Assembly: GCF_024207115.1 (NCBI RefSeq)
Contig: NZ_CP100128.1
Location: 62,001 to 126,000, forward strand
Direction of reading: 5' to 3'
From: Chromobacterium sp. IIBBL 290-4
Lineage (GTDB): Bacteria; Pseudomonadota; Gammaproteobacteria; Burkholderiales; Chromobacteriaceae
Length of the DNA: 64,000 nt
Position 1 is the first letter of the stretch; each line of letters opens with the position of its first letter. This document shows, piece by piece, positions 19,809 to 64,000 of this stretch. The notes under the pieces are model-generated. The model did no database searches. It worked only from the letters and a program-made list of their open reading frames with translations, and was not told where the DNA came from. Made by a program: the position numbers and the translations under genes.

Positions 19809-20708
19809 TCATTTCGACGCGGCCGGCCCTGGTATATTGAGCAGCAAGCCATTGCCCTCGCCGCCCACCACATTGGGCATCTGGCCATTCCATTTGTCGA
19901 TGTAGGCGCGTTGCAGCTTCAGCCTTTCCCAAGCCAGCAGCCTGTCATCCAGCGACGAAGCCAGCGCGCGGTTGGCGGCCGCTTCGCCCTCGGCGATCGC
20001 CACTTTCTTGCGCGCTTCCGCTTGCGCCGCCCGCACCTCGTTTTCGGTGCGGATGGAATCCTGGATCGCTTTGGTCTTGGCGTTGACCGCGTTGGCCAGC
20101 TCCGGCGGCGGCCTGAGCGCGCCCACCAGGCCGAACTGCTGGATGGAGACGCCGATCGGCTGGGTGCGGCGGTTCAGCTCGGCCGCTACCCGGCTCAGGA
20201 ACTCTTCTTTCTTGACGCCGTTGACGTCATCGAAGCTGTACTCGGAGCCTATGGCCACCACGATGTTGCGCGCGGTGTCGCGCAGATAGCCGTGCGTCCA
20301 GTTGGAAATGTCGTCGGCGCGGAAACGGGTGTAAAACTCAGGCACCTTGCGCGCGTCCAGCAGATAGGACACAGCCACGTCTATCGTCACCGGCACCGCG
20401 TCCTTGGTGTTGAAGCTCAGTTCCTCATTGGACGGACTGCCCTCGCTGGGCGAACGCGTCCACACCTCGCGCTGCACGAAAGTGGGATACACCACCACCA
20501 CGCTCTGGATAGGATTGAAGAACACAAAACCGGTCACCACGTTTTCCTTGCTGATGCCGCGGTCGATCAACCGGTTGATCTTGATGCCGGTGTAGCCCGG
20601 ATTGATCACGGTCCAGCTGAGCAAGGTCTTATCCATCAAATTGAACAGCACGATCAAGGCGAGTAGCGCCGCCCCGATCTTGATCAAACCACGCGAAGGC
20701 ATTGGCAT
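19809..20708 (-). CDS. SPFH/prohibitin-domain membrane protein
   Basis: The 299-residue protein has an N-terminal membrane anchor (IGAALLALIVLFNLMDKTLLSWTVINPGYTGIKIN) followed by an SPFH (band 7) domain. A helical coiled coil rich in Ala/Glu/Arg (ENEVRAAQAEARKKVAIAEGEAAANRAL) and a short C-terminal tail complete it. SPFH proteins form membrane-associated ring assemblies and modulate proteases or transporters. It is divergent from the HflK-like gene at 20919 across a 210-base promoter region, so it may be co-regulated with that metal-transport block. Confidence 0.88.
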   Translation of the reverse strand: MPMPSRGLIKIGAALLALIVLFNLMDKTLLSWTVINPGYTGIKINRLIDRGISKENVVTGFVFFNPIQSVVVVYPTFVQREVWTRSPSEGSPSNEELSFNTKDAVPVTIDVAVSYLLDARKVPEFYTRFRADDISNWTHGYLRDTARNIVVAIGSEYSFDDVNGVKKEEFLSRVAAELNRRTQPIGVSIQQFGLVGALRPPPELANAVNAKTKAIQDSIRTENEVRAAQAEARKKVAIAEGEAAANRALASSLDDRLLAWERLKLQRAYIDKWNGQMPNVVGGEGNGLLLNIPGPAASK

Positions 20709-20918
20709 GGCATTATCCTTTATTCAAGCGCCGGCAAGAGCTCGGCTCCTAGTCAGAATATGCCATTGAAATTAACAACCGCAAGATGAGGCATCGCATT
20801 TTGCAATTGTTGCGGTCCAAACCGGTTCCTGATGCACTAAATTGTCGATAGATGTCATCCGCGTGGCATCTGCCGCGTTAACCATACACAACAAGTGGTC
20901 AAATCCTGCAGAGCCGAC

Positions 20919-21959
20919 ATGTCCAGCCAAGCACCGCAATCCGATCCGCGCGCCGACAGCGCGCCGCCGTCTTTTATCTCCATGCGCCAGCGCCTCGATT
21001 ACTCCCTGCAACTGCTCGGCATGCCGGGCAAGGGTTTGCGTCTGTTGGGCGGCTTGCTGCTGCTGGGCTGGCTGGCTTCAGGCATCTACCGGGTGGAGCC
21101 GGACGAGCAAGGCGTGGTGCTGCGCTTTGGCCGCTGGGTGGACACCACCTCGGCCGGCCTGCACTACCACTATCCCTGGCCAGTGGAATCCGTTCAACTG
21201 CCCAAGGTCACCCAGATCAAGCAGCTGAAACTAGCCAACCTGTATGAAAGCGGCCCGGCCGACGCCGCCGACCCGCGCGAAAAACAAATGCTCACCGGCG
21301 ACGAAAACATCGTCGAAGCGGATTGCGCGGTGTTCTGGCGCATCAAGGACGCCGGCCAGTTCCTGTTCCGCACCAATAAGCCGGAAGAGGCGCTGCGCAT
21401 CACCGCCGAAGGCGCCTTGCGCGAAGTGATCTCGCACACGCCCATCCAGGCCTCCATGTCCAACCGCCGCCAGCAAGTGGCGGAAGAAACCCGCAGCCTG
21501 ATCCAGCAGCGGCTGGACGCGCAGCAGGCCGGCATTCTGATCACCCAGGTGCAGCTGCAAAGAGTGGACCCGCCCGCCGCGGTGATCGACGCCTTCAACG
21601 ATGTGCAACGCGCCCGCGCCGACCAGGAGCGCGCCCGCAACGAAGCCCAGGCCTATAGCAACGACATCCTGCCCAAGGCGCGCGGCGAGGCTGAACGCAT
21701 CCGCCAGGAAGCCGAAGCCTACCGCAGCCAGGTGGTGAATCTGGCCCAGGGCGAGGCCAAGCGCTTCGACTCGGTCTACCAGACCTATGCCCAAGCCAAG
21801 GACGTGACCGCCTGGCGGCTGTATCTGGAAAGCATGGACGACATGCTGAAAAAAGCCAGCAAGGTAGTGATAGACGGCACCGGCAAGAACGGCGCCGGCG
21901 TGCTGCCGCTATTGCAATTGCAGGACAAGCCGAAGAGCGGCGGCAAGGAGAACCGATGA
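20919..21959 (+). CDS. HflK-like SPFH protein
   Basis: The 346-residue protein has one N-terminal membrane helix (LRLLGGLLLLGWLASGIY) and the HflK opening YRVEPDEQGVVLRFGRWVDTTSAGLHYHYPWP, then an SPFH domain and a long helical tail (ARNEAQAYSNDILPKARGEAERIRQEAEAYR). It is shorter than E. coli HflK (419) and lacks its Gly-rich N-terminus. The classical hflKC partners hfq and hflX are absent here, so this looks like a paralogue of hflK. The next gene, HflC-like, starts inside its stop (ATGATGG). Confidence 0.88.
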   Translation: MSSQAPQSDPRADSAPPSFISMRQRLDYSLQLLGMPGKGLRLLGGLLLLGWLASGIYRVEPDEQGVVLRFGRWVDTTSAGLHYHYPWPVESVQLPKVTQIKQLKLANLYESGPADAADPREKQMLTGDENIVEADCAVFWRIKDAGQFLFRTNKPEEALRITAEGALREVISHTPIQASMSNRRQQVAEETRSLIQQRLDAQQAGILITQVQLQRVDPPAAVIDAFNDVQRARADQERARNEAQAYSNDILPKARGEAERIRQEAEAYRSQVVNLAQGEAKRFDSVYQTYAQAKDVTAWRLYLESMDDMLKKASKVVIDGTGKNGAGVLPLLQLQDKPKSGGKENR

Positions 21960-22837
21960 TGGATAAGCAATGGCGCGGAATCGGCTGGGCGGCGGGCATC
22001 GCCGCAATCTGGCTGGCGCTTTCGGCGCAATACACGCTGAACGAGGGGCAAAAGGCGCTGGTGGTCCGGCTGGGCGCGCCGGTGGATGTGGACGGCGAGC
22101 CGGGGCTCAAGTTCAAGCTGCCGCTGATCGACAGCGTGCAGTACTACGACACCCGTCTGCAGATGCTGGCGCCGCCGCCGGAGCAAGTGATTCTGGGCGA
22201 TGAAAAGCGGCTGGAGGTGGAAACCTACACCCGCTACTGCATCACCGACACGCTGCGCTTCTATCAGGCGCTGCGCACCGAGGAGCAGGCCCGCGCGCAA
22301 CTGGCGCAGTTGGTCAGCACCTCGCTGCGGCGTGAACTGGGCAAAGTCCCCCTGAGCGACTTGCTGTCGGCGCGCCGCGCCGCCATCGTCGCGCACATCC
22401 AGCAGGAAGTGGCCGAGCGCGCCCGCCCCATGGGCTTGCAGGTGACCGAGGTGCAACTGCATCGCGCCGACCTGCCGCTGGAAACCAGCCAGGCCATTTA
22501 CGACCGGATGAAGTCCGCCCGCCAGCAGGAAGCCAAGGAGTTGCGCGCCCAGGGCGCGGAATGGGCGCAGCAGATCCAGGCCAAGGCCGACCGCGACCGC
22601 ACCGTGATCCTGTCCGAGGCGCAGCGGCAAAGCGCCATCACCCACGGCGAAGCCGATGCCGAAGCCGGCCGCATCCTGGCCCAGGCTTTCAGCAAGGACC
22701 CCAAGTTCTACAAGTTCTACCGCTCGCTGCAAACCTACCGCCAGTCGCTGGCGGACTCCGCGCCCACCGTGGTGCTGTCGCCCGACTCGGCCTTGCTGCG
22801 GGACTTGCGAAACGGCCCGGCCGGGGGCAAACCATGA
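21956..22837 (+). CDS. HflC-like SPFH protein
   Basis: The 293-residue protein has a single N-terminal helix and LNEGQKALVVRLGAPVDVDGEPGLKFKLPLIDSVQYYDTRLQ, a clear HflC-type SPFH start. The conserved YCITDTLRFYQALRTEEQARAQLAQLVSTSLRRELG and a coiled coil with DRDRTVILSEAQRQSAITHGEADAEAGRI follow. It overlaps both neighbours by 4 bases, so it is translationally coupled to the HflK-like and Nramp-like genes. The pair probably makes a membrane ring around a client, inferred from HflKC. Confidence 0.9.
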   Translation: MMDKQWRGIGWAAGIAAIWLALSAQYTLNEGQKALVVRLGAPVDVDGEPGLKFKLPLIDSVQYYDTRLQMLAPPPEQVILGDEKRLEVETYTRYCITDTLRFYQALRTEEQARAQLAQLVSTSLRRELGKVPLSDLLSARRAAIVAHIQQEVAERARPMGLQVTEVQLHRADLPLETSQAIYDRMKSARQQEAKELRAQGAEWAQQIQAKADRDRTVILSEAQRQSAITHGEADAEAGRILAQAFSKDPKFYKFYRSLQTYRQSLADSAPTVVLSPDSALLRDLRNGPAGGKP

Positions 22838-24087
22838 GTGGGGCTGACATGTCGCTGCAGCCCTCCACCCTGCGCCGGCTGCGCCACCTGCTGGCGGCCA
22901 TCGGCCCCGGCCTGGTGGTGATGCTGGCCGATACCGAAACCGGCAGCGTGATCGCCGCCGCGCAAAGCGGCGCGCACTGGGGCTATCGCATGCTGCCCTT
23001 GCTGCTGGTGCTGATACCCTTGCTCTATATGGCGCAGGAGCTGACCATACGGCTGGCGCTGGGCACCGGGCAGAGCTATGGCGAGCTGGTGGTGCGCCGC
23101 TGGGGGCGGCGCGCGGGACAATTTTCCGCCGCCCTGCTGCTGCTCAGCTGCTTGGGCGCGCTGGCGACCCAGCTGAGCGGCCTGGCCGGCGTCGGGCAGA
23201 TGTTCGGCGTCCCGACGGCGCACACCGTGCTGCTGTTGTGCGCGCTGATTTTCATCATGGTCTGCACCGGCAGCTACCGTTCGGTGGAGCGCACCGCCAT
23301 CGCGCTGGGCGTATTCGAGCTGGCCTTTCTGGCCGAAGCCTGGCTGGCCCACCCCAGTGGCAGCCAGATCGTCGCCCAACTCAAGCAGCTGCCGCTGTCC
23401 AACCACGATTTCCTGCTGCTGGCCGCCGCCAATATCGGCACCTGCATCATGCCGTGGACCATCTGCTACCAGCAGTCGGCGATGCTGGACAAAGGCTTGA
23501 CGCTGGCCGATCTGAAGCCAGCACGGCTGGATACCCTGCTGGGCGCCACGCTGTGCCAGGTCATCACCGCCGGCATCTTGATCGCCGCCGCGGTCGCCTT
23601 CGGCAACGGCGCGGGCGGCGCCAGCCTGGACACCATTCCAGAGATCGCCGGCGGCTTCACCCGCCTGCTAGGCCCCACCGGCGGCAAGCTGCTGTTCGCG
23701 CTGGCCCTGTCCGGCGGCGCGCTGGTGGCCACCATCGTGGTCTGCCTGTGCGGCGCGTGGACGCTGGGCGAAATGAGCGGCCAGCGCGAATCGCTGGAAA
23801 AACACCCGCTGCAGGCACCCTGGTTCTACGGCAGCTTCGCCTTGATGCTGGCCGGCGCCGGCGCGCTGGTTTCGTCCGGCGTCAATCTGGTCAAGCTGTC
23901 CATCGCCACCTCGGTCGCCAACGCCCTGCTGCTGCCCATCATGCTGGCGGGCCTGTACTGGCTGGCCTGCAAGGAGCTGCCGCCCGAGCTACGTCCCAGC
24001 CGGCGCTATCAGATGCTGCTGGCGCCGTCGCTGCTGCTGGTCGGCGGCTTCAGCCTCTACGCCGGCATCGTCGGCAGCCTGAACTGA
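22834..24087 (+). CDS. Nramp-superfamily divalent-metal transporter with altered motifs
   Basis: The 417-residue protein has about eleven hydrophobic helices and Nramp landmarks at shifted identity. TM1 shows GPGLVVMLADTETGS, so the canonical DPGN metal-binding motif reads D33-T-E-T. TM6 has MPWT (206-209) where classical members have MPHN-like residues. This points to a divergent Nramp subgroup rather than a standard MntH, and its metal could differ. It overlaps the HflC-like gene (ATGA). The TerC-like gene follows 15 bases later. Confidence 0.85.
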   Translation: MSGADMSLQPSTLRRLRHLLAAIGPGLVVMLADTETGSVIAAAQSGAHWGYRMLPLLLVLIPLLYMAQELTIRLALGTGQSYGELVVRRWGRRAGQFSAALLLLSCLGALATQLSGLAGVGQMFGVPTAHTVLLLCALIFIMVCTGSYRSVERTAIALGVFELAFLAEAWLAHPSGSQIVAQLKQLPLSNHDFLLLAAANIGTCIMPWTICYQQSAMLDKGLTLADLKPARLDTLLGATLCQVITAGILIAAAVAFGNGAGGASLDTIPEIAGGFTRLLGPTGGKLLFALALSGGALVATIVVCLCGAWTLGEMSGQRESLEKHPLQAPWFYGSFALMLAGAGALVSSGVNLVKLSIATSVANALLLPIMLAGLYWLACKELPPELRPSRRYQMLLAPSLLLVGGFSLYAGIVGSLN

Positions 24088-24102
24088 ACTCACGGAACCC
24101 AG

Positions 24103-25188
24103 ATGGAACCCGACAGCCTCGCCCATGCCTTCGGCCTGACTTTCCAGGTCTCCTTTCTCGACCTCATCCTCAGCGGCGACAACGCGCTGGTGATCGCCCT
24201 GGCCTGCCGCGCTCTGCCCGAACAACTGCGCCGCCAGGCCATCTTGTGGGGAACCGGCTTCGCCATCCTGCTCAGGCTGTTGCTGACCGCCTTCACCGGC
24301 GTGCTGATGATGGTGCCGCTGCTCAAGCTGACAGGCGCGGTCATTTTGCTGTTCATCGCCTTCCGGCTGCTGCTGGACGATGCGGGTGGCGAAGACGGCG
24401 GCGCGCTGGCCGAGAAAGCCAGCCACAGCGACCAGCTGTGGAATGCCGTCACCCTGATCGTCGGCGCAGACTTGGCGCTGAGCCTGGACAATGTGGTAGC
24501 GCTGGCCGCCGCGGCGCAGGGCAGCGTGCTGTTCCTGCTGCTCGGCCTGCTATTGAGCGTGCCGCTGCTGATGTACGGCAGCTTGCTGCTGTCACGCTTG
24601 ATGAACAGCTACCCGCTGCTGATCCCGGCCGGCGCAGCGGCGCTGGGCTGGCTGGCCGGCAGCCTGGCGGTCGGCGACGCCTTGTGGGCCGACTGGCTGG
24701 CGGCCAATGCCCCGGCGCTGCAAGTGGTCGTGCCCTTATTGACCATGGCCTTTGTCCTGCTGGAGAGCCGGGTGATCCGCGAACAACGCCGCGCCTTGCC
24801 GGCCATGCCGCCGCTGGACTGGTTCGCGCCGCTCACCCGCCGCCTGGCGGGCTGGGGAGAAGCGCGGATACAGACCGCAAGCGCCCCGGTCGACTCGTCC
24901 CCCGCTCCCATCGAAATCGCAGCCTCATCCGCCGCGCCATCCTCGGTGGATCTGCCACCATCGCTGCCCGAAGAAGCGATCGAGCCTGCGGCGGCCATCG
25001 CGCCGCAGCCGCAACAAGACAGCGATGAGGAAGACCGCTCCGGCCGCAACCGGCTCAGCCCGCCCTTGAAGCTGCTGGTAACGGCGGCGGCCATTTTCGG
25101 CGCCATCGTGCTGCTGTGGCTGATCTGGCATTTAACCAGCCAGGGCTTTTTGCCTGCGCCGGCCCACCACGCCAAATCCGTTCATTAA
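24103..25188 (+). CDS. TerC/YjbE-family membrane protein with extended tail
   Basis: The 361-residue protein has the TerC-family opening FLDLILSGDNALVIALACR and the second conserved ADLALSLDNVVALAAAA, with about seven helices to residue 240. TerC relatives handle Mn or other metals and in Bacillus support metal loading of exported proteins. Unusually, the core is followed by a Pro/Ser/Ala-rich, acidic linker (about residues 260-315) and an extra helix (LLVTAAAIFGAIVLLWLIWHL) with a His-containing end. It is the last gene of the SPFH block. Confidence 0.87.
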   Translation: MEPDSLAHAFGLTFQVSFLDLILSGDNALVIALACRALPEQLRRQAILWGTGFAILLRLLLTAFTGVLMMVPLLKLTGAVILLFIAFRLLLDDAGGEDGGALAEKASHSDQLWNAVTLIVGADLALSLDNVVALAAAAQGSVLFLLLGLLLSVPLLMYGSLLLSRLMNSYPLLIPAGAAALGWLAGSLAVGDALWADWLAANAPALQVVVPLLTMAFVLLESRVIREQRRALPAMPPLDWFAPLTRRLAGWGEARIQTASAPVDSSPAPIEIAASSAAPSSVDLPPSLPEEAIEPAAAIAPQPQQDSDEEDRSGRNRLSPPLKLLVTAAAIFGAIVLLWLIWHLTSQGFLPAPAHHAKSVH

Positions 25189-25529
25189 TCTGCGCTCGCG
25201 CCTTTCACTGGTATTTATCTGGTAGCAAAATCCGGCAATAGGATCCCCTCCCATTCCGGCGCCCCGCGCGGATCGCTCCTCCAGCCTCCGCGCCGGCGCC
25301 GTCCCCGCCGATTCATGCCTCTCCCTCACACAATCCAATACTGACGCGCCATCCAGCTTTCATGGTTGCGCGTCGCGCCATCAATGCGCCCACTCTGCGC
25401 TATCAAGCCCCTCCTGGCAAAAAGAACAGGAGCATTTTTATTTCCTACAACTACAGTCCAAATATTAATACCACTTAAATACAAGTTGTCGCGTTCTTTT
25501 GGCTGCACCCACAACAACAGGAGAACAGA
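25189..25529. other. Intergenic region between the TerC-like gene and the chitinase
   Basis: No gene is seen in these 341 bases. The right half is AT-rich and contains the dyad at 25414-25432 and an AGGAG RBS just before the GTG at 25530. It should hold the chitinase promoter and any terminator of the metal block. Confidence 0.6.
25411..25443. promoter_or_regulatory. Dyad upstream of the chitinase: LuxR-type box or terminator
   Basis: CTCCTG-N10-CAGGAG is a perfect 6-base inverted repeat. Its core CTGGCAAAAAGAACAG is 16 bases and fits the CTGNCC-N4-GGNCAG pattern reported for the quorum regulator CviR at most positions. A weak -10 (TACAGT, 25452-25457) would place the box centre near -42. 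The same dyad is followed by ATTTTTATTT and could instead be a plus-strand terminator of the upstream operon. I cannot decide between the two. Confidence 0.4.
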
Positions 25530-27920
25530 GTGAGCAAAACCCTGATGCTATTGAAAGGCGGACTCGCCATCGGCGCGCTGGGCGGCGGCGCCTTGCTGGC
25601 CGGACATGCCCTGACGGACAACGGCGGGGCGTCCATCCCGCTGATCCGCGCCAGCCTGGTCAAGCCAGCCGACAGCAGCTGCACTGATCCGGCCTGGAGC
25701 GCGACCACCGTCTATAACGGCGGCCAGCGCGTCAGCTACCAGAACCAGACCTGGCAAGCCAAGTGGTGGACCCAGGGCAATACCCCGGCCGCCGGCGACG
25801 CCAGTCCCTGGCAGCTGATAGGCCAGTGCGGCGGCGGCAATCCCAACCCGCCGCCGGATCCCCCGCTGGTGCAGGTGCCGGCGCCCACCGGCAACGCGCT
25901 GTGTCGGCCAGAAGCGCTGGCGCAAACCCCCAGCGTCGACGTGCCCTACTGCGCCATCTACAAACAAGGCGGCGCGGAACAGCTGGCCAACGGCAGCCGC
26001 CGCCGCATCATCGGCTACTTCACCAGCTGGCGCACCGGCAAGGATGGCAGCCCGGCCTATCTGGTGAACAACATCCCCTGGGGCAAAATCACCCACATCA
26101 ACTATGCCTTCGGCCATGTCGACGGCAACAACCAGCTGTCGGTCAACGACACGGCCGCCGGCAATCCGGCCACCGACATGACCTGGCCGGGCGTGGCCGG
26201 AGCCGAGATGGACCCCAGCCTGCCCTACAAGGGCCACTTCAACCTGCTGACCCAGTACAAGCGCAAGTTCCCGGGCGTGAAGACCTTGATCTCGGTGGGC
26301 GGCTGGGCCGAAACCGGCGGCTACTTCGACGCCAGCGGCAAACGCGTGGCCAGCGGCGGCTTCTACAGCATGACCGTCAACGCCGACGGCAGCGTCAACC
26401 AGACCGGCATCAACACTTTTGCCGACTCGGCCGTCGCTTTCCTGCGCAAATACGGCTTCGACGGCCTGGACATCGACTTCGAATATCCGACCTCGATGAG
26501 CAACGCCGGCAATCCGCTGGACTGGACCTTCTCCAACGCCCGCCTCGGCTCGCTGACCAAGGGCTATGTGGCGCTGCTGCAGACGCTGCGCGACCGGCTG
26601 GACCGCGCCGCCGCCCAGGACGGCCACTACTACCAGATCACCGCCGCGGTGCCGGCTTCCGGCTACCTGCTGCGCGGCATGGAAACCTTCCAGGGCCTGA
26701 AGTATCTGGATTTCGTCAACGTGATGTCGTATGACCTGCACGGTTCGTGGAACCAGTTCGTCGGTCCCAACGCCGCGCTGTTCGACGACGGCAAGGACGC
26801 CGAACTGGCCTTCTGGAACGTCTACAGCACGCCGCAGTACGGCAATATCGGCTACCTCAACACCGACTGGGCCTACCATTACTACCGCGGCGGCCTGCCG
26901 GCCTCGCGCGTCAATATGGGCGTGCCCTACTACACCCGCGGCTGGAAGAACGTCACCGGCGGCAGCAACGGCCTGTGGGGCACGGCAGTGGGCAGCAACT
27001 GCCCGACCGGTCTGCAGACTTGCGGCGACGGCGCGGTGGGCATAGACAATATCTGGCACGATCTGGACGACAACGGCAAGGAGATCCCGGGCGGCTCCAA
27101 CCCGATGTGGCATGCCAAGAACCTGGAGAAAGGCATCGCCGGCAGTTATCTGGCCGCCTACGGCCTGGACACCAGCCAAGCCATCAACCAGCTCAGCGGG
27201 ACCTACCAGCGCAACTACAACAGCACGCTGGCCGCGCCGTGGCTGTGGAACGCCAGCAAGAACGTGTTCCTGTCCACCGAGGACGAGCAGTCCATCGCGC
27301 AGAAAGCGGCCTGGGTCGACGCCAACAATGTGGGCGGCGTGATGTTCTGGGAGCTGGCCGGCGACTACGACTGGAACGCGCAGCGCAATAACGGCCAGGG
27401 CGAGTACTACATCGGCAACACCCTGACCAATCTGCTGTACAGCACCTTCAGCCAGCCGGCCAAGGTCAGCGCCAAGCGCGCCGACATCGCGCCGGCGCCG
27501 ACCGCGGCCATCGATGTGGGCCTCAGCCTGGGCAGCTTCGCGCTGGGCGATCAGAACTATCCGATCAACCCCAAGCTGACCATCGTCAACCGCTCGTCCA
27601 ATACCACGCTGCCCGGCGGCACCGAGTTCCAGTTCGACGTGCCGACCTCGGCGCCGGCCAATATCGCCGACCAGTCCGGCTTCGGGCTCAAGGTGATCAG
27701 CGTCGGCCATAGCGGCAGCAATGTCGGCGGCCTGAAGGGCGACTTCAACCGCGTGTCGGTGAAACTGCCCAGCTGGCAAAGCCTGGCGCCGGGCCAAAGC
27801 GTGACCTTGGACGTGGTGTACTACCTGCCGATTTCCGGGCCCAGCCACTACACGGTGGGCCTGAACGGCAAAACCTACGCCATTCGCGACGAAGCGCCCT
27901 ACCTGCCGTATCTGCAGTAG
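25530..27920 (+). CDS. Secreted GH18 chitinase with chitin-binding module
   Basis: The 796-residue protein starts with GTG after AGGAGAACA. A hydrophobic N-terminal segment precedes a CBM5/12 module (about residues 48-108: DPAWSATTVYNGGQRVSYQNQTW...) and a Pro-rich linker. The GH18 barrel starts near residue 155 (RRIIGYFTSWR), with DGLDIDFEYP at 311-320 and catalytic Glu318. The last 145 residues form a beta-rich domain that may also bind polysaccharide. It hydrolyses chitin outside the cell. Two terminators follow. Confidence 0.95.
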   Translation: MSKTLMLLKGGLAIGALGGGALLAGHALTDNGGASIPLIRASLVKPADSSCTDPAWSATTVYNGGQRVSYQNQTWQAKWWTQGNTPAAGDASPWQLIGQCGGGNPNPPPDPPLVQVPAPTGNALCRPEALAQTPSVDVPYCAIYKQGGAEQLANGSRRRIIGYFTSWRTGKDGSPAYLVNNIPWGKITHINYAFGHVDGNNQLSVNDTAAGNPATDMTWPGVAGAEMDPSLPYKGHFNLLTQYKRKFPGVKTLISVGGWAETGGYFDASGKRVASGGFYSMTVNADGSVNQTGINTFADSAVAFLRKYGFDGLDIDFEYPTSMSNAGNPLDWTFSNARLGSLTKGYVALLQTLRDRLDRAAAQDGHYYQITAAVPASGYLLRGMETFQGLKYLDFVNVMSYDLHGSWNQFVGPNAALFDDGKDAELAFWNVYSTPQYGNIGYLNTDWAYHYYRGGLPASRVNMGVPYYTRGWKNVTGGSNGLWGTAVGSNCPTGLQTCGDGAVGIDNIWHDLDDNGKEIPGGSNPMWHAKNLEKGIAGSYLAAYGLDTSQAINQLSGTYQRNYNSTLAAPWLWNASKNVFLSTEDEQSIAQKAAWVDANNVGGVMFWELAGDYDWNAQRNNGQGEYYIGNTLTNLLYSTFSQPAKVSAKRADIAPAPTAAIDVGLSLGSFALGDQNYPINPKLTIVNRSSNTTLPGGTEFQFDVPTSAPANIADQSGFGLKVISVGHSGSNVGGLKGDFNRVSVKLPSWQSLAPGQSVTLDVVYYLPISGPSHYTVGLNGKTYAIRDEAPYLPYLQ

Positions 27921-27927
27921 TCCTCAA

Positions 27928-27955
27928 GCGCCCGCGGAGGCGGGCGCCGATTTTC
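27928..27955 (+). terminator. Terminator after the chitinase
   Basis: GCGCCCGC-GGAG-GCGGGCGC followed by CGATTTTCC, 8 bases after the stop. Confidence 0.85.
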
Positions 27956-27976
27956 CTCTCCTTGCATCCCTCGTTT

Positions 27977-28006
27977 AGGCCGAGCCCGTCTCGGCCTTCT
28001 TTTTTA
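27977..28006 (+). terminator. Second terminator after the chitinase
   Basis: AGGCCGAG-CCCGT-CTCGGCCT followed by TCTTTTTT, a stronger T-run than the first hairpin. Confidence 0.9.
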
Positions 28007-28025
28007 GTCCTTAGGCACAGTAAAT

Positions 28026-28054
28026 TTGCAATGAATATGCCGTAGATATAAAGT
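28026..28054 (+). promoter_or_regulatory. Possible promoter of the OsmC-FIST-GGDEF run
   Basis: TTGCAA, a 17-base spacer and TAAAGT stand about 53 bases before the GTG start at 28107, in a short AT-rich stretch after the chitinase terminators. Confidence 0.4.
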
Positions 28055-28106
28055 ATTATGCATTTCAAGACATTAAACCAATAATTACAAGTAATCAGGA
28101 GCCCAT

Positions 28107-28670
28107 GTGGAAACGCTAAACGGCGTGGATCTCGCCGCCATCCAGCAATACCAAACCTCGGTCAAAAACGACGCCGCCCAGGGCCGCGCCACTTTCATCG
28201 CCCGCTCCTCGTGGCTGGGCGGCACCCGCTCCGCCATCCAGGTAGGCGAAATGCGGCTGGCGGGCGCCAACGCCGCCTCCGCCAGCCGCAGCTTCGAACT
28301 GCGCTGCGATGAACCGCCGCAACTGGGCGGAGAGGACAGCGCCCCCAATCCGGTGGAATTGCTGGCGGCGGGACTGTGCGGCTGCCTGACCGCCGGCATC
28401 GCCACCAATGCCGCCCTCTTCCATACCGCGCTGGAGAAACTGGACGTGGAGGTGCGCTGCGACTGGGACATGCGCGGCGTGCTGGGCCTGGACAAGAGCA
28501 TCCCTAACCACGCTCTGGGCATCCATTACCAAGTCACGCTGAAGGGCAAACCAGGCGTCAGCGAAGCGCAGCTTGAGCAATGCAAGGCCGCGCTGGACCG
28601 CAAGTCGGCCATCCTGCACACCTTGCTGAACGAAATTCCGGCGACGACCTCCATCCGGATCGAGCCCTGA
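28107..28670 (+). CDS. OsmC-family protein
   Basis: The 187-residue protein has the OsmC/Ohr fold features: RCDEPPQLGGEDSAPNPVELLAAGLCGCLTAGI with the peroxidatic Cys region, and a C-terminal domain ending in the ISI-like strand TSIRIEP. OsmC proteins reduce organic peroxides with thiol donors. It begins with GTG; an ATG two bases earlier is out of frame and stops at once. RBS CAGGA lies 6 bases upstream. The FIST gene follows after 2 bases. Confidence 0.87.
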   Translation: METLNGVDLAAIQQYQTSVKNDAAQGRATFIARSSWLGGTRSAIQVGEMRLAGANAASASRSFELRCDEPPQLGGEDSAPNPVELLAAGLCGCLTAGIATNAALFHTALEKLDVEVRCDWDMRGVLGLDKSIPNHALGIHYQVTLKGKPGVSEAQLEQCKAALDRKSAILHTLLNEIPATTSIRIEP

Positions 28671-28672
28671 GC

Positions 28673-47626: not shown

Positions 47627-47896
47627 TTACTTGCGCAGGCCCAGACGGGTGATCAGCGCGCGGTAAGCGTCAGCGTCGGTGCGCTTCAGGTAGTCCAGCA
47701 GACGGCGGCGACGGCTAACCAGCTTCAGCAGACCACGACGGCTGTGGTGGTCCTTGGTGTTGGCCTTGAAGTGCGGGGTCAGGTCGTTGATGCGTGCGGT
47801 CAGCAGGGCAACTTGAACTTCGGACGAACCAGTGTCGCCTTCAGCGCGTTGGAAGCCTTTAACGATTTCAGCTTTTTGAGCGGCGGTCATTGCCAT
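47627..47896 (-). CDS. rpsO: 30S ribosomal protein S15
   Basis: The 89-residue protein has the S15 signature: [47 protein letters not shown] and the end ITRLGLRK. It binds the central domain of 16S rRNA in 30S assembly. GGAG about 9 bases upstream supports the start; a second Met two codons later is possible. Order truB-rpsO-pnp is conserved. Confidence 0.98.
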
Positions 47897-47988
47897 TTGG
47901 ATTACTCCGTTTCAATAGGGGTTTGAAAACCCGACAAGTGCGGCGAGCCGGACAACCCAACCCATTCCACACTCCGGTAGTTCGCGAA

Positions 47989-54465: not shown

Positions 54466-54479
54466 CCCTAACCGCTGCG

Positions 54480-54485: not shown

Positions 54486-54734
54486 ACCTATTTCCGCAAA
54501 AAAGGAAACCCGCGCCCGCGGCGGATTTCCGGGCGGAGGAACGCCTATGCCGGACAATTTTTGCGAGACGATTTCAGTTACGGTACATTACCGCGAATCA
54601 AACCTTGGTTTGACCGCAGCGGCCATGCAAAAGACCGCCAGAAAAACGACTAAAAATAGCGAAATCCAACCCACGCCGCCCGGCGACGCAGGGCGGACGC
54701 TCGCTAAACCCGCACGACGGAGAAACCCGGATTT
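54486..54734. other. Divergent control region between rimP and fadD
   Basis: There is no gene and no tRNA here. It holds an imperfect GC inverted repeat at 54504-54530 and an ACGGAG-like RBS before fadD. Neither strand shows an ORF with coding character. Confidence 0.55.
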
Positions 54735-56414: not shown

Positions 56415-56432
56415 ATCCAGCCTTAAGCCATG

Positions 56433-56463
56433 ACGCCGCCCCGCCAGGGCGGCGTTTTCGTTT
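56433..56463 (+). terminator. Terminator after fadD
   Basis: ACGCCGCCC-CGCCA-GGGCGGCGT followed by TTTCGTTT, 18 bases after the fadD stop. Confidence 0.9.
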
Positions 56464-56525
56464 CCGCTCCGCCGCACCCGGCCGCGTCCTACACTGATAG
56501 ACGAACACCATGCGCGGAGCGAACC

Positions 56526-57656
56526 ATGCTGATGCTGCCCTTTTTCAAGCTGATGGCCGAGAAAAAAGCCAGCGACTTGTTCATGACCAGCTTCTCTCCG
56601 CCCATGCTCAAGCTGGACGGCGAGCTCACCCCGATCAACGACAAGCCCCTGACCGCCGACATGGTCAAACGGCTGGCTTACAGCCTGATGAGCGAGGAGG
56701 AAGCCGCCGCATTCGAGCGCGAACGCGAAATGAACCTCGGCCAGCCGGTGCCCGGCCTGGGCAGCTTCCGCGTCAATATCTTCTGGCAACGCGGCTCGGT
56801 GGGCATGGTGGTGCGCTACATCGTCCCCAGCATCCCCTCGCTGGAAGACCTGCAGCTGCCGACCAAGCTGGCCGATCTGATCGCGCTCAAGCGCGGGCTG
56901 ATCCTGGTGGTGGGCTCCACCGGCTCCGGCAAAAGCTCCACCGTGGCGGCCATGCTGCAAACCCGCAACCAGACGATGAAAGGCCACATCCTGACGGTGG
57001 AAGATCCGATCGAATTCCTCTACCGCCACGACAAGTCCATCGTCAACCAGCGCGAAGTGGGCTTCGACACGCTGTCCTACGCCCGCGCGCTGAAAAACGC
57101 CATGCGCGAAGCGCCGGACGTGCTGATGATAGGCGAGATCCGCGATCCGGAAACCCTTACCCACGCCATCAACTACGCCCAGTCCGGCCATTTGTGCATT
57201 TCCACGCTGCACAGCAACAACAGCTACCACATGCTGAATCGGGTCATCAATTTCTTCCCGCCGGAAAACCGCAACTCGCTGCTGATGGACTTGTCTTCCT
57301 CTTTGCGCGCCGTCATTTCGCAACGCCTGGTGCCTACACTGGACAGCGGCCGCGCGCCGGCCATCGAGCTGATGATCAATACCCCACACATAGCGGAGTT
57401 GATTCGAACCGGAGAGATAGACAAAATCAAGGAAGCCATCGACAACAGCATGAGCGATGGCGCGCAAACCTTCGAACAGGCGCTGTTCCAATTGTACAAA
57501 TCGGGACGGATCAGCCTGGACGAGGCGCTGAAAAACGCCGATTCGCCCACCAATCTGTACTGGCTGGTGAATCAGGCCAAAAGCGGCGGCGCGGAAAAAC
57601 CCAAACCTGGCCCGGCCAACGCGGCCAGCTTCGACAGCATCAAACTGGATCTGTAA
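56526..57656 (+). CDS. pilU: Type IV pilus retraction ATPase, PilU type
   Basis: The 376-residue protein is a PilT/VirB11-type ATPase: Walker A GSTGSGKSST, Asp box VEDPIEFLYRH, Walker B LMIGEIRD and His box HLCISTLHSNN. The N-terminus MLPFFKLMAEKKASDLFMTSFSPPMLKLDG and the long C-terminal tail fit PilU rather than PilT. It assists pilus retraction for twitching. The usual partner pilT is not adjacent. Confidence 0.92.
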   Translation: MLMLPFFKLMAEKKASDLFMTSFSPPMLKLDGELTPINDKPLTADMVKRLAYSLMSEEEAAAFEREREMNLGQPVPGLGSFRVNIFWQRGSVGMVVRYIVPSIPSLEDLQLPTKLADLIALKRGLILVVGSTGSGKSSTVAAMLQTRNQTMKGHILTVEDPIEFLYRHDKSIVNQREVGFDTLSYARALKNAMREAPDVLMIGEIRDPETLTHAINYAQSGHLCISTLHSNNSYHMLNRVINFFPPENRNSLLMDLSSSLRAVISQRLVPTLDSGRAPAIELMINTPHIAELIRTGEIDKIKEAIDNSMSDGAQTFEQALFQLYKSGRISLDEALKNADSPTNLYWLVNQAKSGGAEKPKPGPANAASFDSIKLDL

Positions 57657-57664
57657 CCCACCCG

Positions 57665-59142
<1,478 letters not shown>

Positions 59143-59200
59143 GCCCCTCCCGCCCTGCATCGCCTTCAAGAAGGCGAGCGGGTGGTCCGGCAACCCTCCG

Positions 59201-59230
59201 ACGCCGCGTCAGCGGCGTTTCTCTTTTCAC
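59201..59230 (+). terminator. Terminator after dapE
   Basis: ACGCCGC-GTCA-GCGGCGT followed by TTCTCTTTT. Confidence 0.88.
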
Positions 59231-59408
59231 ATACCGCAACAAAGCCGGCCAGCGCGATGGCATGATCCGGAATATAAATAAAGGGACAAGAGCCGCTCCA
59301 AACCGAAAAACAATCTCCCAGACCGCCCTCTGCCATGCGCCGCCACCGCCTATCGCCTTCGGCGACTCGAATTTGCGCCACCCGCGACCGCCTGCGGGGG
59401 CCATCGCC

Positions 59409-61295
59409 ATGACCGCGCCGCGCGCGGACGCCCCGCTCGCCCTCCGCGAAAAGCAGCTGGCCGCATGGGCGATGGGCGCGCTGGCGGCCGCCGCCGCGAC
59501 CGGGCTTGCCGCCTTGGCCTACGGCGATCTGGCCGGCGAAATCTGGCAGACGCTCTGCGCCGCCATGGCTTTGCTGGCGGCGACCTTGCTATCCAGCCTC
59601 GCGCAAGCGCAAAAACGCCGCAAGCAGGCCGGCGAGCCGGCGCCCCGCTGGCTCGCCCATAGCGGGTTCGCCGCTATCCCTCAGCTGGGATCAGCCTTGT
59701 GGCGGCCCAAAACCGACAAAGCCTCCCCCTGGCTTAGACTGACAGGGCTGCGCGTCCGGCGCGCCATCGGCCGCAAGCTGGGCTGGGACCTCGCCTGGCT
59801 GGGCGTGGGCAGCCTCGCAGCGGCGCCGCTCGCCCTGCTGGCCTTGCCCGCCGCCCAACTCCCCGCGCAAGATAAGACCGCCGCCGCCCTGGCCGCGGCC
59901 GGCGGCTTCGCCGTCGCCTTCGCCTGCCTATTGCTGGAGAGGCTGCTGGCATCCAAGCCCGGCGACGCCGCGACGCAATCGCAGCGGGAGATGCTGCTTG
60001 CCCTGCTCCCCGCCGCCTTGCTGCCCGCGCTGCTGGCCCTGGCCACGCTGGACGGCACGGCATGGCCGGCGCGGCTGCGATTTCTCGCCCCCGCCTGGCT
60101 GGCCTTGCTAAGCCTGGAACAACTGCTGCGCGTCATCCGGGCAGGCTTTCTGCCTTATCGCCGCCGGCTGAATCGCCCTCCCCTCGCAGGCTGCCTGCTG
60201 GTTTCCGGCTTGCGCCGCCGCTTCGCGGCCGACAAAGCCTACCGTCTGCCGGAGCGCCCAGGGCTGCGGCTCAGGCAAAGCTGGGCGCTGGCTTTCGTCT
60301 GGCGCGCCGCGCCGGCCGCGGCGGGCTGCCTGTTATTGGCGGGCTGGCTGCTCAGCAGCTTGAAAATAGTGGCCTTCGATCAGCGCGGCGTCTACGAGCG
60401 CTTCGGCCAGCCCGCCGCCGTCTGGCAGCCAGGCCTGCACATCGGACTGCCCTGGCCGCTCGGCGACACGCGGCTGATTGAGAACGGCGCGATTCATCAA
60501 GTTTCCGCCGGCGGCACGGCGCGGAACGCCAGCGCCCAGGACAACGGCGACCGCTTATGGGACGGCGAGCATCCGGCCGAAACCATGCAACTGATCGCCA
60601 GCGGCAAGGGCAATCAGCAGACCACGCAATTGATGAGTCTGGATGTGCGCCTGGTCTACCGCCAGGGCCTGAGCGACCGGGATGCGCTGGCCAGTTATCG
60701 ACAGGCTTCCCCGGACGAATTGCTGCGCGATGTCGCCAGCCAGACCTTGCTCGGCTATTTCGCAGGCCGCCAGTTGGACGAGCTGCTGGGCAACAGCCAG
60801 GCCGCCGCGGCCGCCGCGCTGCGACAGTCCATCCAGCGGCGGCTGGACCTGGCCGGCAGCGGACTGGAGCTGCTGGCCGTCGTGGTGCAGACCCTGCACC
60901 CGCCGGCCGGCGCCGCCCGCGCCTTCCACGCCGTGCAAGCCGCCCAGATCCAGGCCCAGGCGCGCGTCGCCCAAGAGCAGGGCCAGGCCATCCGCAGCCT
61001 CAGCGGCGCCCGCCAGGCGCAAACCGAGGCGCGGGCCGGCGCCCAAGCCGCCGCGGCTGAGAAACAGGCCGAGGCCAACGCCGCCGCCATCGCCTTCCAG
61101 GCTGATCGCGCCGCCAGCCAAGCCGGCGGCGCGGCTTTTCTGTACGAACGCTATCTGCACAATCTGAGCCATGGCCTGGCCTCGTCCCGCGCCATCATCA
61201 TCGACCATCGGCTGGATGCCGCCGGCCTACCCGCCATCGATCTGCGCCGCAATGCCGGCGCGGCCGATGCGGCGGCCGGCCTGCCGCATCGCTGA
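59409..61295 (+). CDS. SPFH protein with large multi-pass membrane N-terminus
   Basis: The 628-residue protein has about seven hydrophobic segments in its first 320 residues. The last (AAAGCLLLAGWLLSSLKIVAF) leads into an SPFH domain of HflK type (FDQRGVYERFGQPAAVWQPGLHIGLPWPLGDTRLI). A helical Ala/Gln/Glu-rich region (about 490-570) and a tail follow. Ordinary HflK has one N-terminal helix, so the added membrane domain is unusual. It opens a four-gene run that ends in a metal P-type ATPase. The upstream gene is separated by a terminator. Confidence 0.87.
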   Translation: MTAPRADAPLALREKQLAAWAMGALAAAAATGLAALAYGDLAGEIWQTLCAAMALLAATLLSSLAQAQKRRKQAGEPAPRWLAHSGFAAIPQLGSALWRPKTDKASPWLRLTGLRVRRAIGRKLGWDLAWLGVGSLAAAPLALLALPAAQLPAQDKTAAALAAAGGFAVAFACLLLERLLASKPGDAATQSQREMLLALLPAALLPALLALATLDGTAWPARLRFLAPAWLALLSLEQLLRVIRAGFLPYRRRLNRPPLAGCLLVSGLRRRFAADKAYRLPERPGLRLRQSWALAFVWRAAPAAAGCLLLAGWLLSSLKIVAFDQRGVYERFGQPAAVWQPGLHIGLPWPLGDTRLIENGAIHQVSAGGTARNASAQDNGDRLWDGEHPAETMQLIASGKGNQQTTQLMSLDVRLVYRQGLSDRDALASYRQASPDELLRDVASQTLLGYFAGRQLDELLGNSQAAAAAALRQSIQRRLDLAGSGLELLAVVVQTLHPPAGAARAFHAVQAAQIQAQARVAQEQGQAIRSLSGARQAQTEARAGAQAAAAEKQAEANAAAIAFQADRAASQAGGAAFLYERYLHNLSHGLASSRAIIIDHRLDAAGLPAIDLRRNAGAADAAAGLPHR

Positions 61296-61305
61296 GGAAA
61301 CCATC

Positions 61306-62298
61306 TTGGGCCACACGCACTCGCATTCGCACCCTCACCCGCCGCCAAGCGGCCAGGACAGCCCGCGCAGCCGCAGGCCCCGCCTCGCCGCGGCCATCGC
61401 GGTGGCGGCGCTGGCGCTGGCGGCCGCCTGCATGCTGCAAGTCCGTTCGGGCGAAGCCATGGTCATCACCCGCTTCGGGGCGCCGGAGCGCGTGCTGCTG
61501 CAGCCTGGGCTAGCCTGGCGCTGGCCGCAGCCTTTCGAAAGCGCTGTGCCGGTCGATCTGCGTTTGCGCACCACCTCCAGCGGCCTGCAGGATGTCGGCA
61601 CCCGCGACGGCCTGCGCGTCATCATGCAAGCCTATGTGGCCTGGCAAGTGCCGCCGGACGCCGTCCACATCACCCGCTTCATGCGCGCGGTGCGCAACCA
61701 GCCCGACGAGGCCGCGCGCCAGATCCGCAGCTTCATCGGCTCCACGCTGGAAACCGGCAGCAGCGCCTATGCGCTGGGCGACCTGGTCAACACCGACCCG
61801 GCGCGATTGAAACTGCCCCAATTCGAGCAAGCGCTGCGCGGGCAGCTGTCACAATCGCTGCTGGCCAGCTACGGCGTTCAAGTCGTCGATGTCGGCGTCG
61901 AGCGGCTGACGCTGCCCGCCGCGGCGCTGGACGCCACCGTGGCGCGGATGCGGGCCGAACGCGACACGCTGGCGGCGGAAAGAACCGCGGCGGGCAACGA
62001 GCAGGCCGCCGCCATCCGCGCCGAAGCCGCCCGAGACGCCCGCATTCTGCGCGCCAACGCCGTGGCGGAAGCCGCCAAGATCGAGGCCGACGCGCAGACC
62101 GAAGCCGCCAGGATTTACGGCAGCGCCTACCAAAGCGCGCCGGAACTGTATAAAACCCTGCGCGCGCTGGATACGCTGAACCACATCGTCAACGGCGACA
62201 CCCGCTTGATTCTCCGCACCGACGCCGCCCCCTTCCGCTCCCTGGTGGAGGGCCCGCCCGGCCAGGGCGCGCCGGCGCGCAAGGCGGGCAGAAAATGA
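61306..62298 (+). CDS. HflC-like SPFH protein with His-rich N-terminus
   Basis: The start is TTG at 61306 (GAGGAAA 6 bases upstream), giving 330 residues. The N-terminus has His at residues 3, 5, 7, 9 and 11 (GHTHSHSHPHPP), a likely metal-binding stretch, before one membrane helix. The SPFH domain (VRSGEAMVITRFGAPERVLLQPGLAWRWPQPFES) and a coiled coil (RDARILRANAVAEAAKIEADAQTEAARI) follow. Coupled to the next gene by ATGA. It probably pairs with the SPFH products on either side. Confidence 0.88.
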   Translation: MGHTHSHSHPHPPPSGQDSPRSRRPRLAAAIAVAALALAAACMLQVRSGEAMVITRFGAPERVLLQPGLAWRWPQPFESAVPVDLRLRTTSSGLQDVGTRDGLRVIMQAYVAWQVPPDAVHITRFMRAVRNQPDEAARQIRSFIGSTLETGSSAYALGDLVNTDPARLKLPQFEQALRGQLSQSLLASYGVQVVDVGVERLTLPAAALDATVARMRAERDTLAAERTAAGNEQAAAIRAEAARDARILRANAVAEAAKIEADAQTEAARIYGSAYQSAPELYKTLRALDTLNHIVNGDTRLILRTDAAPFRSLVEGPPGQGAPARKAGRK

Positions 62299-63335
62299 GC
62301 GACACCGGCAGGCGCGCCCCTCCCTCGGCCCTGGAACAAACCCTGCGGCCGGCCTACTGGCTGCTGCTGGCCATCGCCGCGTTGAGCGGACTGGCCTGGC
62401 TGTTCGGCAATGTCCGCCTGATCCCGGCCGACAGCCAGGCGGTGGTGCTGCGCTTCGGTGCCATCGACCGCGCGCAGCGGGCCGGCCTGCTGCTGGCCTG
62501 GCCCAGTCCGCTGGAAGAGGTGCGGCTATTGCCCGCCGAAGAGCGGCTGCAACAAAGGCCGATCAAGCGCCTCGCCCGCGCGCCGGAAGCCGATCTATTG
62601 GACCAGGCCGGCATCCCGCTGGCGCAGATGAACGACGCCCAGGCCGGCTCCGGCTATCTGTTGACCGGCGATCTGGGCGTGACCCAATTGCGCGCCGCCG
62701 TCTACTACCGGATCACAGACCCCGCCGCCTACGTCCAGCAAGGCGATCTGGCGCTACCCATGCTGGACAAGGCGGTCGAGGCCGCCGCGATGCGGCTGTG
62801 CGCCAGCCGCGGCCTGGAAACCATCATGGCCACGCGCGAGACGGGCGCCGGCGCCGCCATCGCGCGCGAACGGCTGCGCGCCGAACTGGCGCAGGAGAGC
62901 AATGCCCGCCTGAACGCCTGGAAGAACCGCGGCGCGGGCATAGGCGTGCAAGTCTCGCGCATAGACTTGCAATCCACGCTGCCGCGCGCGGCGCAGGCCG
63001 CCTTCGACGCGGTCCTAAGCGCCGACCAGGCCGCGCAGCGCCAGCTCGCCCAGGCGCGCACCGAGGCCGCCCTGTCGAAACAGCAGGCCCAAGCCGCGGT
63101 CGCCGAAGCGATCAACGGCGCGCGGGCCCGCGCCGACGAACGCATCGCCCAGGCGCGCGCGGAAACCAGCGAAATCCAGGCGCTGGCAGGGCGCGCCGGC
63201 GGGACGGCAGGCGCCGAGGTGCTGCGCCAACTGTATCAGCAGCGCCTGCCCGCCATCCTGGCCAAGGCCGGCAAGGTCACCACCGTCGATCCCGCCGCCG
63301 CCAGCCATCTGATTCTGCCGGGAGAGTCGCCATGA
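62295..63335 (+). CDS. HflK-like SPFH protein
   Basis: The 346-residue protein has an N-terminal helix (AYWLLLAIAALSGLAWLFG), then VRLIPADSQAVVLRFGAIDRAQRAGLLLAWPSPLEEVRLLP, an HflK-like SPFH domain. A long coiled-coil region (ARTEAALSKQQAQAAVAEAINGARARADERIAQA) follows. It overlaps the genes before and after it by 4 bases. Confidence 0.87.
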   Translation: MSDTGRRAPPSALEQTLRPAYWLLLAIAALSGLAWLFGNVRLIPADSQAVVLRFGAIDRAQRAGLLLAWPSPLEEVRLLPAEERLQQRPIKRLARAPEADLLDQAGIPLAQMNDAQAGSGYLLTGDLGVTQLRAAVYYRITDPAAYVQQGDLALPMLDKAVEAAAMRLCASRGLETIMATRETGAGAAIARERLRAELAQESNARLNAWKNRGAGIGVQVSRIDLQSTLPRAAQAAFDAVLSADQAAQRQLAQARTEAALSKQQAQAAVAEAINGARARADERIAQARAETSEIQALAGRAGGTAGAEVLRQLYQQRLPAILAKAGKVTTVDPAAASHLILPGESP

Positions 63336-64000
63336 ACGGTTGCGCCCACGCCTCGCCCGCCCTGCTGGAGCCCGCCGAACGCGCGCGGCAAAGCCGCCGC
63401 TTGCTGCTGGCCATGACCGCCATCGGCCTGCTGTTGCTCTCCGCGTTCTGGCAAGGCTTCGTCGCCAATGGCGCCGCGCTCGCCCAGGCGCTGGCCGCCG
63501 CCGCGTCGCTGCTGCTGGCCAGCCCGATGCTGCGCGCCGCCTGGCAAAGCCTGCGAGCGCCGGATCTGCACGGCCTGACCGACCTGTTGGCCGCGCTGGC
63601 CATCGTCGGCGCCTGGGCCGCCGGAGACTGGGTCAGCGCCGCGCTGCTGCCCATCCTCATCGTGCTGGGCCACGCGCTGGAAGAGCGCAGTCTGCTTGGC
63701 TCGCGCGAGGCCATCGCGGCGCTGGCCGAGCTGAGCCGCCATCGCAGCCGCCGGCTGCTGCCGCAGGGCGGCCATGAGGATGTGGACAATGATTTGCTGA
63801 CGACGGGCGACCAGATCGACATCCGTCCCGGCGACCGCATTCCCGCCGATGGCCGAGTGACAGAGGGCCACTCCAGCCTGGACGCATCCGCCGTGACCGG
63901 CGAAGCCGCGCCCGGCGACGTTTCGCCGGGCAGCCGGGTCTACGCCGGCTCCATCAATCTGCAAGGCCGCTTGCGAATGACCGTCGAGCGCGCCGCCGCC
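63332..64000 (+). CDS. Heavy-metal P-type ATPase, N-terminal part (cut by window end)
   Basis: The frame is open to the end of the window (223 codons). It starts ATGAACGGTTGC after GGAGAG and overlaps the HflK-like gene. There are several hydrophobic helices and then the actuator domain: GDQIDIRPGDRIPADGRV and SAVTGEAAPGDVSPGSRVYAGS with the TGE loop. These identify a P1B metal-transporting ATPase of the Zn/Cd/Cu group; the metal cannot be told without the CPx motif. It lacks a classical N-terminal HMA domain, though an N-terminal CxH is present. Confidence 0.9.
   Translation, partial: MNGCAHASPALLEPAERARQSRRLLLAMTAIGLLLLSAFWQGFVANGAALAQALAAAASLLLASPMLRAAWQSLRAPDLHGLTDLLAALAIVGAWAAGDWVSAALLPILIVLGHALEERSLLGSREAIAALAELSRHRSRRLLPQGGHEDVDNDLLTTGDQIDIRPGDRIPADGRVTEGHSSLDASAVTGEAAPGDVSPGSRVYAGSINLQGRLRMTVERAAA

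Follow-up and report, generated by a model that had tools for sequence, protein, structure and literature searches.

We describe here two unrelated gene clusters, each composed of SPFH genes and a metal transporter, that lie within a single stretch of DNA from Chromobacterium sp. IIBBL 290-4. The stretch (hereafter the window) covers 64,000 nucleotides, positions 62001-126000 of the single 5.1 Mb contig NZ_CP100128.1 (assembly GCF_024207115.1). Set 1 has the layout HflK'-HflC'-NRAMP-TerC and occupies 20895-25188 on the plus strand; set 2, on the plus strand too, runs from 59379 to beyond the window end and consists of three SPFH genes with a P1B ATPase after them. Each set is found again as a unit in other genomes.

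The SPFH gene sets and their genomic setting

The individual features are listed below with their supporting matches.

20895..21959, plus strand: HflK' (set 1), 354 amino acids, GTG start as called mechanically; TIGR01933, 254 bits (cut-off 159)
21956..22837, plus strand: HflC' (set 1), 293 amino acids; TIGR01932, 201 bits (cut-off 134)
22834..24087, plus strand: NRAMP-family transporter (set 1), 417 amino acids; Pfam Nramp, 181 bits; ETGS in transmembrane helix 1 (TM1) and TCIMPW in TM6
24103..25188, plus strand: TerC/YjbE-type protein (set 1), 361 amino acids; TIGR03717, 193.5 bits (cut-off 134.8)
59379..61295, plus strand: long SPFH protein (set 2), about 638 amino acids, start codon uncertain; Band_7 at residues 334-537
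61306..62298, plus strand: HflC-like SPFH protein (set 2), probable TTG start; Band_7; TIGR01932, 100 bits, below the cut-off of 134
61312..61338, plus strand: codons of a His-rich tail (HTHSHSHPH, five His) that precedes the membrane helix of the HflC-like protein; located by alignment
62295..63335, plus strand: third SPFH protein, HflK-like (set 2), 346 amino acids; Band_7, 49 bits; TIGR01933, 86 bits, below the cut-off of 159
63332..64000, plus strand, continuing to window equivalent 65224: P1B-type ATPase (set 2), first part; TIGR01525
19809..20708, minus strand: SPFH/Band_7 protein, 299 amino acids, a divergent neighbour of set 1; Pfam Band_7, 86.6 bits

A first-pass annotation, made from the letters of this DNA, had proposed two SPFH sets, each beside a metal transporter, and the family matches bear this out: in Pfam searches all six claimed SPFH genes (three at about 19.8-22.8 kb and three at 59.4-63.3 kb) contain a Band_7/SPFH domain, set 1 has matches to the Nramp and TerC families, and the final 222 codons of the window match the E1-E2 ATPase family. 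The complete set-2 ATPase, recovered from the genome, has 630 amino acids (63332-65224, 1224 bases beyond the window) and scores 505 bits against TIGR01525 (cut-off 346), so that its description as a P1B-type ATPase following three SPFH genes stands; it carries ACPC in TM6 and HNGST close to the C-terminus. The 4-base overlaps into the transporter gene are likewise present in both sets, as ATGA at 22834-22837 (HflC'/NRAMP) and at 63332-63335 (third SPFH gene/ATPase). The HflC' and HflK' genes themselves overlap by four bases, or by one base if the second ATG is the start, and the probable TTG start of the HflC-like gene, 61306, lies 10 bases past the stop of set 2's first gene.

The first set had originally been drawn at 19.8-25.2 kb. 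Its plus-strand part, 20895-25188, is retained; the minus-strand SPFH gene at 19809-20708 falls outside the conserved operon and was rejected as a member, having no tblastn relative (E <= 1e-3) in the eight other set-1 loci. Genome-wide there are 10 SPFH matches spread over five loci, and metal transporters are found at two of the five. The genome's own hflX-hflK-hflC region, at 2.90 Mb, is separate from both sets, and the genome has one FtsH gene.

Conservation of set 1

The set-1 association follows one branch of the NRAMP family. An NRAMP match at E 1e-80 is present in 26 of the 399 genomes searched within the order, and eight NRAMP homologues (own genome included) are at least 57% identical, coming from two genera of the organism's own family and from two other families. 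HflK' and HflC' precede the NRAMP gene and TerC follows it in all eight of these closest homologues. At 42-53% identity, in order and phylum searches, 27 of 28 NRAMP loci show no SPFH or TerC gene in the flanks covered—mostly 1.5 kb, some ended by contig ends—and the exception is G907. One NRAMP homologue (L211, 50% identical) is immediately followed by a gene resembling P-type ATPases (35% over 269 residues).

A ninth genome, G907, carries the same four genes rearranged, in the order NRAMP-TerC-HflK'-HflC'. Its HflK' and HflC' are 66% and 65% identical to those of the window, its NRAMP groups with a different subclade (100, Shimodaira-Hasegawa-like approximate likelihood ratio test, SH-aLRT), and it also carries a second, ordinary hflK; either a partner swap or a second assembly is possible. 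The set-1 pairing outlasts a change of gene order and of NRAMP, with NRAMP and TerC adjoining HflK'/HflC' in 9/9 set-1 loci. In the class of G907, 58 of 59 hflK loci have no NRAMP or TerC within about 1.5 kb on each side, and the 59th is one of the nine set-1 loci.

Searches for regulatory elements near set 1 yielded little: Rfam matches in the nine loci were tRNAs only, with no riboswitch, and the window gave only a ribosomal S15 leader. Fur, MntR and Zur boxes were sought upstream in the nine loci and none was found in eight; in the remaining one, G099, a match to an MntR consensus beat all 60 shuffles and was not used. A literature search for an operon of HflK/SPFH, NRAMP and TerC linked to manganese returned one plant review only and did not find such an operon, most subscription journals lying outside its reach; the HflKC-NRAMP-TerC operon seems undescribed. 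To this extent the first-pass view that no such SPFH metal-transport system had been described survives for set 1; it fails for set 2, as discussed below.

Transporter type and metal of set 1

Papers are cited here by PubMed Central (PMC) number. The sequence nearest to the set-1 NRAMP among solved proteins is the NRAMP-related magnesium transporter (NRMT) of E. lenta, at 120 bits. Mn/Fe-importing NRAMPs keep a methionine in TM6, and Mg-carrying NRMTs have lost it, along with the TM6 histidines tied to proton coupling (PMC8806188). Set-1 NRAMPs resemble the NRMTs in having W in place of the first TM6 histidine; unlike NRMTs, they retain the TM6 methionine (MPW), and they have T or S where the rest of their branch has A. 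An aspartate in TM1 is called universally conserved in the NRAMP family (PMC8806188); at this position the window and G099 have Glu, and the other six set-1 NRAMPs have Asp. TM1 of set 1 reads D/ExxS and is neither DxxN nor DxxG. Consequently the window's ExxS - TxxM matches neither the NRMT ion-site signature, DxxG - TxxA/T (PMC8806188), nor the classical NRAMP signature, DxxN - A/CxxM, of which the methionine is retained and other positions differ. Magnesium was considered as the metal carried by the set-1 NRAMP and rejected on the NRMT signature. The second NRAMP-family gene of this genome (2967586-2968725) does have an NRMT-type signature, with DAGA in TM1 and TTVAPW in TM6.

The set-1 TerC protein passes the model for the YjbE subfamily (TIGR03717). 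It departs from YjbE and from MeeF/MeeY by a C-terminal extension, which in the window is a linker with an extra membrane segment, as in four of the six relatives viewed. In G907 the TerC protein (L237:2951-4354) has a C-terminal response-regulator receiver domain instead (PF00072, 58.6 bits). TerC proteins are described as manganese exporters, and the B. subtilis TerC proteins MeeF and MeeY co-purify with FtsH, FloT and FloA (PMC10550928). Because the TM6 methionine is kept and a TerC gene adjoins, manganese is our best guess for the metal of set 1.

Separate origins of the SPFH proteins

The two sets differ in how their SPFH proteins relate to the true HflK and HflC. Quick trees with SH-aLRT support (64 rows for HflK and 54 for HflC) place set-1 HflK' and HflC' each in one clade (100) within alphaproteobacterial hflKC rows, a label that rests on grouping with Azospirillum, Tistrella and Sinorhizobium rows; the clade adjoins three genomes of G907's family (99). 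The approximately unbiased (AU) test rejects trees that place set-1 HflK together with beta/gamma hflK (p 0.0115), and also those in which alpha hflK forms a group that excludes set-1 HflK (p 0.028). By the former result, an origin of HflK' as a recent duplicate of the genome's own hflK is rejected. The trees suggest that, in set 1, duplicated alphaproteobacterial hflKC genes likely joined the metal transporters and then moved to betaproteobacteria.

Set-2 SPFH proteins fall into clades of their own, which are well supported, sit on long branches and lie far from true hflKC; the joining of two long set-2 branches in the HflK tree carries a long-branch warning and is not trustworthy. Since set 1 lies inside alphaproteobacterial hflKC and set 2 in distant clades of its own, two SPFH lineages joined metal transporters separately, and neither set inherited the link from the other. 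The first-pass annotation had asked whether the paralogues form clades apart from true hflKC; those of set 2 do and those of set 1 do not. It had also named random neighbours within the true hflKC clade as grounds for dropping the idea: set 1 does sit within that clade, but its NRAMP and TerC neighbours are constant in the nine loci. With two separate associations, each conserved in other genomes, the suggested link between SPFH proteins and metal transport is indeed likelier than chance.

HflKC encloses FtsH, and the family tests bear on whether the extra SPFH proteins do so too. In the main rival to the enclosure proposal given below, these proteins join or replace HflKC around FtsH and alter degradation in metal stress—for instance by sparing a new transporter, or by adjusting a zinc metalloprotease to low zinc—and the transporter is co-expressed, not enclosed. 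Set-1 HflK' and HflC' pass the equivalog cut-offs of the FtsH-modulator models TIGR01933 and TIGR01932 in 5/5 loci (the window and four others); FtsH is single in four of five genomes counted (two genes in G078), so that all SPFH sets would share it; and in two zinc papers the authors draw attention to FtsH (PMC11761036, PMC9431628). We nevertheless consider an adaptor role somewhat unlikely. The set-2 SPFH proteins fall below the same cut-offs in 9/9 tested (three from the window, six from relatives) and stand far off in the trees, and neither the fixed pairing with a single ATPase subfamily nor the His tail is accounted for. Compared with HflK-HflC around FtsH, set 1 is alike in meeting the equivalog models and unlike in sitting with NRAMP and TerC and in its alphaproteobacterial lineage; set 2 is alike in that the best Foldseek matches of its models are HflK/C, and unlike in failing the cut-offs and in having a His tail or six extra membrane helices.

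Set 2 as an hmtA-type operon

Relatives of set 2 were collected by scanning one genome per species with aligned HflC-like proteins, and the best 80 of at least 333 relatives were kept; 71 of the 80 loci are titled Pseudomonas, so the loci are not independent. The remainder are labelled Chromobacterium, Aquitalea, Rahnella, Burkholderia, gammaproteobacteria or proteobacteria. An ATPase of the same subfamily lies downstream of the HflC-like gene on the same strand in 80/80 loci, and the order long SPFH, HflC-like, SPFH, P1B ATPase is present in the window and in all 80 loci (75 have all four genes labelled; in the remaining five the unlabelled gene was found with tblastn). The 4-base overlap into the ATPase gene is present in 71 of 75 loci.

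The operon is also carried on plasmids. Ten plasmid records have an ATPase match at E 1e-80; nine were read, and in 9/9 three SPFH genes precede the ATPase. In their own annotations, plasmids of Klebsiella aerogenes, Rhizobium tumorigenes, Burkholderia ubonensis and Paraburkholderia sprentiae match set 2 gene for gene, order included. The distribution of set 2 is patchy, and the operon is mobile. Searches with the HflC-like and third SPFH proteins, in 369 genomes of the class and 120 of the order, returned mostly true hflKC.

Three surroundings of such genes are recorded as side observations. On the conjugative Klebsiella aerogenes plasmid pYD-K10_1 a Tn3 transposase and a gene for an aminoglycoside phosphotransferase lie a few kilobases from the operon, and the annotation of the Paraburkholderia sprentiae plasmid lists a metal ABC transporter permease and the copper chaperone PCu(A)C no more than 4 kb upstream of it. 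Four-SPFH clusters without an ATPase, in which one gene has a long N-terminal part, occur in G084:C61 (L105) and G023:C34 (L106) and belong to another multi-SPFH family.

Among the 80 relatives is a locus of Pseudomonas aeruginosa PA7, identical to the window at 42% for the long SPFH protein, 69% for the HflC-like protein, 46% for the third SPFH protein and 56% for the ATPase. Judged by its product names and the order of its genes, it corresponds to PA2439-PA2435 of PAO1, the sequence comparison itself having been made with PA7 and not with PAO1. The P. aeruginosa PA2434-PA2439 cluster with HmtA (its SPFH proteins are PaFlo5-PaFlo7 in PA14) shares with set 2 the arrangement of three SPFH genes and then a P1B ATPase. 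The PA7 locus differs by about 0.6 kb with an extra reading frame (L191:8925-9542) between the third SPFH gene and the ATPase, which the window lacks. Set 2 is an hmtA-type operon, known as a zinc-regulated cluster in P. aeruginosa, and in this respect it cannot be called an undescribed system.

Several reports tie the P. aeruginosa cluster to zinc. In a znuA mutant PA2437, PA2438, PA2439 and hmtA rise 14.4-, 10.6-, 9.0- and 5.6-fold, with a weak Zur site (PMC4542158); zinc depletion raises the proteins of these genes, PA2438 and PA2439 significantly according to the authors (PMC11761036); Zur with zinc shifts the PA2439 promoter (PMC8531726); and a Zur regulon lists the three SPFH genes, which N-acetylcysteine also raises (PMC9431628). 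Of the regions upstream of the set-2 relatives, 67 of 75 contain a Zur-like palindrome, GTTAYANNRTAAC, with no more than one mismatch, vs 2/75 shuffled and 0/75 internal sequences, the pattern having been written after viewing six of these upstream regions and the loci being mostly of one genus. Five of the 80 loci were left out of this count (no labelled first gene, or near a contig end).

The zinc evidence also bears on the direction of transport. It is conceivable, but quite improbable, that the set-2 ATPase is an exporter and that the His tail would sense zinc or copper in excess, or sequester it, before export, with the set-1 TerC exporting manganese. Most P1B ATPases export, according to a review; ACPC is kept in 80/80 loci (and HNxST/HNxGT in 79/80); the nearest solved sequences to the set-2 ATPase are Cd/Zn/Cu pumps; and manganese export is the activity described for TerC proteins (PMC10550928). 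Against these points stand the zinc-depletion induction and Zur control of the P. aeruginosa cluster, and the Zn/Cu import reported for HmtA in reviews (including PMC10393844).

The His-rich tail and the set-2 protein models

In set 2 a His-rich stretch immediately precedes the membrane helix of the HflC-like protein. It has at least 4 His, with a mean of 15, in 80/80 loci, and 7-12 His in 8/9 of the plasmid HflC-like proteins; true HflC controls (n=27) have 0 His in 23 cases and 1 His in four. The N-terminus of HflC lies inside the cell, and if the topology is as in HflC the set-2 tail would face the cytoplasm. A literature search for a His-rich tail on an HflC protein connected with zinc and a P-type ATPase returned only two of the zinc papers cited above, and in both 'histidine-rich' concerns other proteins. 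What is new in set 2, relative to the literature portions examined, is the His tail of the HflC-like protein and the fixed SPFH-ATPase pairing.

Hydropathy and an AlphaFold2 model (mean predicted local distance difference test score, pLDDT, 66) give the long SPFH protein six helices and then a seventh leading into the SPFH domain. The model of the HflC-like protein has a pLDDT of 63. Foldseek's top matches for both models are HflK/C chains, and the whole-chain template modelling scores are low.

Proposed enclosure of the transporters

We propose, at a little short of an even chance, that the window holds two separately assembled operons, each encoding a private SPFH ring set made together with its metal transporter, as a dome that would enclose the transporter. 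The proposal is made because of the gene pairing, the homology and the His tail taken together. The SPFH proteins would form a membrane dome around the transporter and keep it in a separate patch of membrane. In set 2 the His tails, which would face the cytoplasm if the topology follows that of HflC, would accept zinc leaving the ATPase. A more specific version, which we find on balance doubtful, is that SPFH cages for metal transporters evolved at least twice. In the P1B zinc cage, the HflC-like subunit would supply tens to hundreds of histidines that line the mouth on the cytoplasmic side and pull zinc inward; in the manganese cage, HflKC would hold the NRAMP transporter and the TerC protein. 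Dome formation, enclosure, transport direction, the metal and the role of the tails are all points that we infer.

A precedent for this way of working is human erythrocyte stomatin, which forms an SPFH dome around AQP1 or UT-B in its membrane patch (PMC12407830). Stomatin is alike in having a transport protein as client; it is unlike in being a eukaryotic homo-oligomer with no metal, and for the bacterial proteins enclosure is a proposal.

A number of observations weigh against the proposal. The case for cages is built on gene content, conservation, phylogeny and motifs, and the AlphaFold models are of low to moderate confidence and of single chains only. Both sets are rare: the set-1 NRAMP branch is found in 8/399 genomes of the order, and the set-2 ATPase at E 1e-95 in 1/369 class genomes, its own. 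Unlike most of its hmtA-type relatives, the window has no recognisable Zur box (its best match, with 4 mismatches, is like those of shuffled controls), and at the plasmid loci tried no Zur-like box comes within 1 mismatch (2-4 mismatches). The HflC-like protein of the Klebsiella aerogenes plasmid has no His tail (1 His); its ATPase has 5 His in the first 45 residues. In P. aeruginosa, hmtA mRNA is reported as low and not repressed by zinc (PMC8531726), and a review states that Zur binding at hmtA was not found and that import by HmtA needs confirmation (PMC10393844). Finally, PA14 without the three SPFH genes is mildly affected, with reduced biofilm and attenuation in wax-moth larvae (PMC13086221).

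The mild PA14 phenotypes also agree with a more general role, in which SPFH rings only stiffen or order the membrane for a misfolding-prone transporter and the His tail, by binding metal, provides no more than minor buffering; many kinds of SPFH proteins are described as organisers of membrane patches. Such scaffolding is unlikely in our view: it predicts neither the pairing with particular transporter clades nor a His tail throughout the 80 loci.

Conserved operons now link two SPFH lineages to defined transporters and to probable metals, and the client question can be tested in culturable bacteria. For PaFlo5-7, the SPFH proteins of the hmtA cluster that have lacked an explanation, there is now a concrete hypothesis, that of a His-rich zinc acceptor, and the HflKC-NRAMP-TerC operon offers a route to where membrane quality control meets manganese handling.

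Other features of the window

Apart from the two gene sets, the ribosomal S15 leader (RF00114, 44.7 bits) lies at window positions 47840-47959 on the minus strand.

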